DNA of 45,029 bases, from positions 1 to 45,029 of the forward strand of contig CASERQ010000009.1 of NCBI GenBank assembly GCA_949290395.1, read 5' to 3'. Each line of letters opens with the position of its first letter. The stretch's first letter is position 1. A program made the position numbers and the translations under genes. Below the pieces are notes generated by a model. That model saw only the letters and a program-made list of their open reading frames with translations, did no database searches and was not told the origin of the DNA. The DNA is from an uncultured bacterium. GTDB lineage: Bacteria; Bacillota_I; Bacilli_A; RFN20; CAG-826. Below are positions 8,997-11,820 of the stretch, one piece after another.

Positions 8997-10725
<1,729 letters not shown>

Positions 10726-10732
10726 TTGAAAA

Positions 10733-10784
10733 CCTCCCCTGTTAAATTTTACGTGTGGTTAGTCATGGGTAAGACACACGAGTC
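10733..10784 (-). promoter_or_regulatory. Candidate preQ1 riboswitch (H-type pseudoknot over the queT SD)
   Basis: In the minus-strand leader, CGTGTG (10780-10775) pairs with CACACG (10757-10752), enclosing a 17-base loop with ACCC and CTAAC. An A-rich linker (TAAAATTTAACA) follows, then the SD GGGGAGG, whose G run can pair with the loop CCC. This hairpin plus A-rich tail plus SD pseudoknot is the architecture of the small preQ1 riboswitches, and CTAACC before the 3' stem strand resembles preQ1-I. The loop is larger than usual, so I do not assign the class. Ligand binding would hide the SD. Confidence 0.55.
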
Positions 10785-10791
10785 GATTAAA

Positions 10792-10820
10792 ATTATATTT
10801 TTACACAATAAAAAAAGCAA
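10792..10820 (-). promoter_or_regulatory. Promoter of the queT-tgt-queA operon
   Basis: TTGCTT (10820-10815) and TATAAT (10797-10792) with a 17-base spacer; start near 10785, at the edge of the riboswitch stem. The -35 box lies inside the stem of the terminator of the upstream gene, so the two signals share sequence. Confidence 0.75.
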
Positions 10821-10843
10821 ATAAAATTGCGATTTATTTGCTG
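10808..10843 (-). terminator. Intrinsic terminator after the 10864-11277 gene
   Basis: Minus-strand AGCAAATAAA and TTTATTTGCT form a perfect 10-bp stem with a 7-base loop, followed by a run of T. It separates the hypothetical gene from the queT operon. Confidence 0.85.
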
Positions 10844-10863
10844 CTTTTTCGTCTTCTACTTTG

Positions 10864-11277
10864 CTATTTATTTTTAAATTTTTCTTTTTCTTCTTTTAAT
10901 AATTTAGAAATTAATTTTAGATCTTTTTTTGTTAAAACGTAGCCTGTATCAAGAATTCCGCCATTTACAGTCATGTTCTTATAAATATAATCAACAAGCC
11001 CACTATATTCAGCGATATCTTTACTTCTTATGTACATTCTTTTAGTGGTTTTGCCTTCACTCAATCTACTTTCTTCTTTAATTAATTCATCTAAAACATC
11101 CTTTGTGTTAAATTTATCATTAAAATAAATCAAAGGATCATAAACTACAAAAATTTCTTTTAAAACTTCTTCTCTAATTGCGGTGTCAAAAGATAAGTCA
11201 CTTATTGTATAAACTTTTTTCTTAGACTTTTTGATTTCAGTTATAATCTTTTGCAATCTGCTTTTTGAAACATCCAT
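10864..11277 (-). CDS. Hypothetical protein, 137 residues
   Basis: I do not recognise the family. The protein is soluble, very rich in Lys/Glu/Ile, with mostly helical segments: a basic N-terminus (KSRLQKIITEIKKSKKKVYTISDL), a middle SEGKTTKRMYIRSKDIAEYS and a C-terminal helix LKLISKLLKEEKEKFKNK. The first 70 residues could form a helix-turn-helix-like fold, but no motif proves it. No SD precedes the ATG at 11277, and the start lies only a few bases after the T run of the structured RNA at 11281-11424, so that RNA may control it. It has its own strong terminator downstream. Confidence 0.65.
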   Translation of the reverse strand: MDVSKSRLQKIITEIKKSKKKVYTISDLSFDTAIREEVLKEIFVVYDPLIYFNDKFNTKDVLDELIKEESRLSEGKTTKRMYIRSKDIAEYSGLVDYIYKNMTVNGGILDTGYVLTKKDLKLISKLLKEEKEKFKNK

Positions 11278-11280
11278 AAC

Positions 11281-11424
11281 TAATAAAAAAGAAGAGACTC
11301 ATTTTTATTTATTATACTACTCATTTTTCCTAACACTATTATCTTTTCGAGTAACTTCTACACAATTTATTTAATGAGTCTCTTCAATTTCAGTTGATAT
11401 TAAGTTTCCTTAATATCTTCTTCT
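11281..11424 (-). ncRNA. Undescribed structured RNA or attenuator with its own promoter
   Basis: A minus-strand transcript of about 145 bases can be drawn. It starts near 11424 downstream of a consensus promoter, forms a perfect 9-bp hairpin with GAAA tetraloop (11417-11396), and ends in a long-range perfect 13-bp stem, GAAGAGACTCATT complement (11385-11373 with 11303-11291), followed by CTTTTTTATT. The 5' strand of that stem can instead pair for 7 bp with a second AATGAGT at 11325-11319, so a terminator/antiterminator choice is possible. It ends next to the start codon of the hypothetical gene. It contains no motif of SRP RNA, RNase P, tmRNA, T-box or a riboswitch class I know. Independent sRNA and cis-acting leader are both open. 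Confidence 0.55.
11311..11316 (-). promoter_or_regulatory. Possible internal -10 box for the 10864-11277 gene
   Basis: A perfect TATAAT lies inside the loop of the long-range stem described at 11281-11424, about 35 bases before the start codon. No good -35 is seen. It could give the hypothetical gene a transcript independent of the structured RNA. Confidence 0.35.
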
Positions 11425-11430
11425 GATTAA

Positions 11431-11459
11431 TTTATACCATGCGAATTTTTATGTGTCAA
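11431..11459 (-). promoter_or_regulatory. Consensus promoter of the structured RNA
   Basis: TTGACA (11459-11454), a 17-base spacer and TATAAA (11436-11431) preceded by TGG, i.e. an extended -10. It is among the best promoters in the window and points at a non-coding stretch. Confidence 0.8.
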
Positions 11460-11820
11460 TACATAAAATGAAATTTTTTTACGAATTTACTTACTAAACA
11501 AAACAAATTTTCATAATGATTGAATTAAAACTTAAACTAAATTATATAATTTTTAAAATATCGCTTTCGATGCTTATTTTCATATGTAAGTTTTTATCTA
11601 AATTTGTGCTCTTTCAGAAAATTTTTGATATTTTATAATCTTTCTAACTTTCGATTAAAAAATAAAACGAAAAGAAAATGAAATTTATAGCTTCATTTTC
11701 ATATTTACATAGATTTAACCTAAGTTTTTTTCTTCGATTTATTTTAAGAATTTTCACTAATTTTTGATGTTAATTTTTCCTAGCCATAATATAATATTTT
11801 CAAAGGAGTTAAACTTAATA
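11460..11820. other. AT-rich divergent intergenic region
   Basis: No credible gene is seen here. It holds a 9-bp inverted repeat GAAAATGAA / TTCATTTTC (11674-11682 and 11692-11700), a TATAAT at 11790-11795 for the kinase gene, and an AAAGGAGTT SD at about 11802-11811. The rest is low-complexity A+T. Confidence 0.6.

Follow-up and report, generated by a model that had tools for sequence, protein, structure and literature searches.

Covariation supports a structured RNA upstream of queT in one small clade of an uncultured gut lineage

Introduction

The minus strand between a divergent pfkB-type sugar kinase gene and the queT, tgt and queA genes carries a promoter, a hairpin and a T run with a long stem, all within a window of 45,029 nucleotides (the whole stretch of DNA analyzed here) from a 1.37 Mb, 96% complete genome. 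Does this stretch encode a real structured RNA, and if so, does it control the gene that follows it or stand as a gene of its own? An earlier note on this DNA left both courses open, proposing either an attenuator or riboswitch or a free small RNA. The proposal is examined here by comparison with related genomes.

Results and Discussion

The element precedes, on the same strand, a gene for a 137-aa protein and then queT, tgt and queA; queT encodes a vitamin-like transporter. Its parts are:

11431–11459, minus strand: promoter of the RNA, by direct reading (TTGACA 11459–11454, a 17-nt spacer ending in TGG, TATAAA 11436–11431)
11283–11424, minus strand: structured non-coding RNA of about 142 nt, from its own promoter to a T run (matches to covariance models R1 and R2, covariation, fold z-score)
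11396–11417, minus strand: 5′ hairpin, 9 bp, perfect, with a GAAA loop, GATATTAAG-GAAA-CTTAATATC (direct reading and covariation)
11373–11385, minus strand: 5′ strand of the long-range stem, GAAGAGACTCATT, pairing with AATGAGTCTCTTC at 11303–11291
11285–11303, minus strand: 3′ strand AATGAGTCTCTTC and TTTTTT (11290–11285), an end resembling an intrinsic terminator (stem and U-rich tail in 5/5 species)

The consensus promoter, the capped hairpin and the 13-bp stem with its T run are present as the earlier note had described them, and the stem encloses a 69-nt loop in the window species. Transcription would be expected to start at 11424/11423, judging from the promoter position; the promoter is missing from the promoter-scan list because that scan demands T as the last base of the −10 hexamer. 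Dinucleotide-shuffled versions have minimum free energies of −18.5 to −21.1 kcal/mol where the RNA itself has −36 (z −4.8 to −5.9; 0/200). No ORF common to the five carrier species was found within the RNA, which marks it as non-coding. Between the RNA promoter and pfkB lies a long A+T-rich intergenic stretch (11460–11780) with repeated CGAAAG/CTTTCG motifs; its counterpart in G025 spans about 740 nt, with conserved ends and a middle that is not conserved.

DNA searches matched two congeners, G025 (79%) and G013 (74%), together with the 5′ end of the element at a contig edge in G001, and the same layout in quite different letters was read upstream of queT in G012. A covariance model built from the first three sequences also picked up G009 and G012 (40.5 and 28.3 bits). 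When five sequences went into a second model, its matches among the 26 genomes of the genus were those same five, clearly separated from the next match (73 bits against 28); the five match it by construction, and what the gap does show is the lack of any conspicuous sixth full copy. The RNA is thus seen in six genomes, complete in five (the window species, G025, G013, G009 and G012) and as a 5′ part running into the contig end in G001. A scan of 196 genomes of the family gave nothing beyond false positives, where absence means none seen among the candidates scored, the first-look filter of the scans scoring part of them. Family-level matches set aside were a simple hairpin lacking the long stem (G146 and G033), a match inside a protein gene (G173) and one whose 5′ helix is broken at six pairs (G096). 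No paralogues of the RNA were found in the same genome. In a QueT tree all carriers fall within one supported clade (97/93) of seven species, and in two genomes of that clade, G024 and G004, the RNA was not found upstream of queT. As far as these searches reach, the RNA is restricted to one small clade of the genus. The genus is probably Candidatus Onthovivens (Bacilli), since the sequence upstream of queT in one congener agrees with that of a Candidatus Onthovivens merdipullorum contig.

Covariation of the stems among relatives, on which the earlier note had staked its proposal, is present in both. Alignment with MAFFT failed to place the G012 stem, which the covariance-model alignment did place, and in the resulting five-species alignment 104/104 cells are paired over both helices. 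Two-sided changes occur in 12 of the 21 pairs, compared with 4.9 in shuffles (0/500 reach 12), and the covariation score is 0.629 versus 0.239; the sequences being few and related and the alignment fitted to the structure, these counts lean towards the structure and the shuffle figures are not probabilities. Sliding the partner strand reduces the two-sided changes to 0–3. They affect five of nine pairs in the 5′ hairpin, where every cell is paired (100%, five species), and 7 of the 12 modelled pairs of the long-range stem; RNAalifold recovers the same 21 pairs. Across three lineages the long stem reads GAAGAGACTCAT, GAGGGAACTCAC (G009) and AAGGATCTACTAA (G012), in every case with the exact complement standing 5′ of a U-rich run, and by eye the G009 (GAGGGAACTCAC/GTGAGTTCCCTC) and G012 (AAGGATCTACTAA/TTAGTAGATCCTT) stems are perfectly Watson–Crick paired. 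Such different letters, each with its exact complement, would be hard to account for without selection for pairing.

The flanking signals are kept as well. In every carrier −35 and −10 hexamers lie just 5′ of the 5′ hairpin, and U-rich sequence follows directly on the stem wherever the element is complete, with 5–7 U in the next 8 nt in all five species. The interior enclosed by the stem varies from 37 to 73 nt and has a loop motif of roughly TCGAAG..AATAAT. Four species share the TTGACA-17-TATAAA layout (the window species, G025, G013 and G001), and the promoter is less close to consensus in G009 (TTGACT-17-GATAAT) and G012 (weaker −35). All of this, from the fold and its conservation to the promoter and T run, is a result of computation, and it supports a real structured RNA whose fold is conserved by compensatory change.

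It belongs to no known class, as the earlier note had stated: Rfam 15 gave no relevant match on the element at the gathering threshold or at E ≤ 10, and the two matches within 10700–11500 (E 4.5 and 4.6) are irrelevant and lie off it.

The neighborhood bears on the relation between the RNA and the genes that follow. In 5/5 full carriers the next gene on the strand of the element is queT, or the 137-aa gene with queT behind it; the linkage is with queT rather than pfkB, because the upstream gene end differs in G009. A further conserved feature stands before queT itself:

10733–10797, minus strand: queT −10 (TATAAT 10797–10792) and a pseudoknot leader ending in GGGGAGG, a separate unit after the RNA (leader at 23 queT loci; P1 covaries)

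The leader body (10785–10733) is conserved in 23 loci, one of them from another family (G058). Its P1 helix of 6 bp shows A-U/U-A and C-G/A-U exchanges; the loop contains an invariant CC, and loop C residues (CCC) could pair with the Shine-Dalgarno G run, forming an H-type pseudoknot predicted to be able to sequester the Shine-Dalgarno sequence. An inserted hairpin is found in this loop in five species (congener loci L047–L051). The leader went unrecognized by Rfam at E ≤ 10 and is missing from the matches of a genome search with the PreQ1 model (RF00522). Its loop is longer than that of preQ1-I, and its A-rich tail fits preQ1-I. An AC 5′ of the P1 3′ strand fits the description of type II preQ1-I (PMC11625349). 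The leader is probably a preQ1-I-like riboswitch missed by Rfam. Elsewhere in the window, a purine riboswitch aptamer (31137–31039, minus strand) matches RF00167 at 41.1 bits, above the gathering score.

The RNA looks like a separate transcription unit because in G025, G013, G009 and G012 queT has a TATAAT and leader of its own beyond the T run; queT-bearing congeners that lack the RNA keep both. We favor, with a probability of about 0.62, a free-standing sRNA gene of about 115–142 nt, read from a promoter of its own and ended by an intrinsic terminator. This was among the options of the earlier note, and covariation in both stems together with the conserved promoter and T run speaks for it. 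We infer that the RNA is transcribed, ends at the T run and acts in trans. RNA polymerase would start near 11424 at the near-consensus promoter and stop at the T run after the long stem. The product, about 140 nt long, would be protected by its 5′ hairpin, and the long stem would close off an A-rich interior that is mostly unpaired. The interior would most likely pair with a target or bind a protein. Counting against the sRNA reading, the loop of 37–73 nt exceeds what is usual in intrinsic terminators.

Several candidate functions were considered. Duplex energies of the RNA with queT starts and the queT leader are ordinary. Pairing with the pfkB start beats shuffles in G000 and G012 and falls below them in G025 and G013; in G000 it ranks 138/1498 among segments of the 45-kb stretch itself, and was rejected. 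Also set aside were a leader peptide, MSSIINKNESLLFY (11324–11280), present in the window species only, and a GGA motif of the CsrA type in the loop of the 5′ hairpin, absent by direct reading from G009 and G012.

The position upstream of queT, shared by the five full carriers, would also suit a role in cis. The RNA could begin at a second, upstream promoter of the queT operon, and how much transcription passes the long stem would be regulated by a factor that disturbs this stem, such as a protein or small molecule bound to the 5′ hairpin or the loop. Long-range stems are common in attenuators, and the T run is just tens of nucleotides from the queT −10 in G012 and G009. However, queT has its own promoter and pseudoknot leader across the whole genus, and a conserved antiterminator is lacking. 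The earlier note had seen one possible switch, a second partner for the 5′ strand of the long stem:

11319–11325, minus strand: AATGAGT, alternative stem partner, species-specific and outside the conserved structure (broken in G025 and G013; 4.6% chance)

The sequence is indeed there, but an exclusive, conserved alternative fold does not follow from it. The pairing fails at 4/7 pairs in the closest relatives, G025 and G013, and a 7-bp partner is present in 4.6% of shuffled interiors, which is weakly significant and near chance. A TGAGT copy occurs at another place in G009, none occurs outside the terminator in G012, and RNAalifold predicts no competing helix in the consensus. A cis-acting attenuator of queT is therefore a rather unlikely reading, which keeps what weight it has because the element lies upstream of queT in every full carrier.

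It is tempting to speculate on a more particular arrangement, a lineage-born regulatory RNA cooperating with the queT pseudoknot leader, for example as an upstream attenuator responsive to preQ1 or queuosine. This is a long shot; if true, queT would be under two layers of RNA control with two promoters.

The gene directly downstream in the window species raises the narrower proposal of the earlier note, an attenuator or riboswitch of that gene:

10864–11277, minus strand: gene for a 137-aa protein, a neighbor but no conserved partner of the RNA (no Pfam or NCBIfam match)

As the earlier note had it, the element ends beside the start codon of an uncharacterized gene, with the ATG at 11277 just past the T run, and in this species the 7-bp exclusive partner is present too. 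A TATAAT at 11316–11311 (minus strand) inside the RNA could be the −10 of the gene here. The protein family was found in 20/59 genomes searched (E ≤ 0.001; loci L003–L021 among them), and no homologue was detected in the full carriers G025, G013, G009 and G012 (4/5). Homologues elsewhere in the genus lack the RNA, so that the homologous leaders anticipated for this gene did not appear; they often have TATAAT a few bases (about 6–12 nt) 5′ of the ATG, a spacing that suggests many are leaderless mRNAs. The presence of the RNA is independent of the 137-aa gene. Four carriers have no detectable homologue and elsewhere the gene occurs without the RNA, so the two are not joined as gene and conserved leader. 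With the alternative partner unconserved as well, a switch specific to this gene is very improbable.

A housekeeping RNA (6S, SRP RNA, RNase P or tmRNA) too divergent for Rfam is hardly credible: size and closing stem recall 6S RNA, and a search with RF00013 gave no match in this genome (it did match the controls, E. coli and B. subtilis among them), but six of the genus's 26 species carry the element where a housekeeping RNA would be expected in all, its 5′ hairpin stands outside the closing stem, and it has no central-bubble architecture.

An unannotated RNA called from sequence alone in an uncultured gut lineage has in this case survived a covariation test. The RNA offers a defined target of about 140 nt for metatranscriptomics, and its analysis also points to a probable, unrecognized preQ1 riboswitch next door.

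Relation to known RNAs

Bacillota attenuators and riboswitch leaders share with the element a promoter, a structured leader and a stem with a T run 5′ of a gene. In contrast to them, it has no conserved antiterminator or aptamer, it is kept without the adjacent gene, and the next operon has its own promoter. A long stem that closes off a large unpaired interior is reminiscent of 6S RNA (RF00013), from which the element differs in its separate 5′ hairpin, the lack of a family match and its narrow distribution. Compared with orphan intergenic bacterial sRNAs that have a sigma-70 promoter and an intrinsic terminator of their own, the terminator stem is long-range, enclosing 37–73 nt, rather than a tight hairpin; the likeness lies in the promoter, a length of about 140 nt, a structured RNA with no ORF, an intergenic position and conservation limited to one clade.
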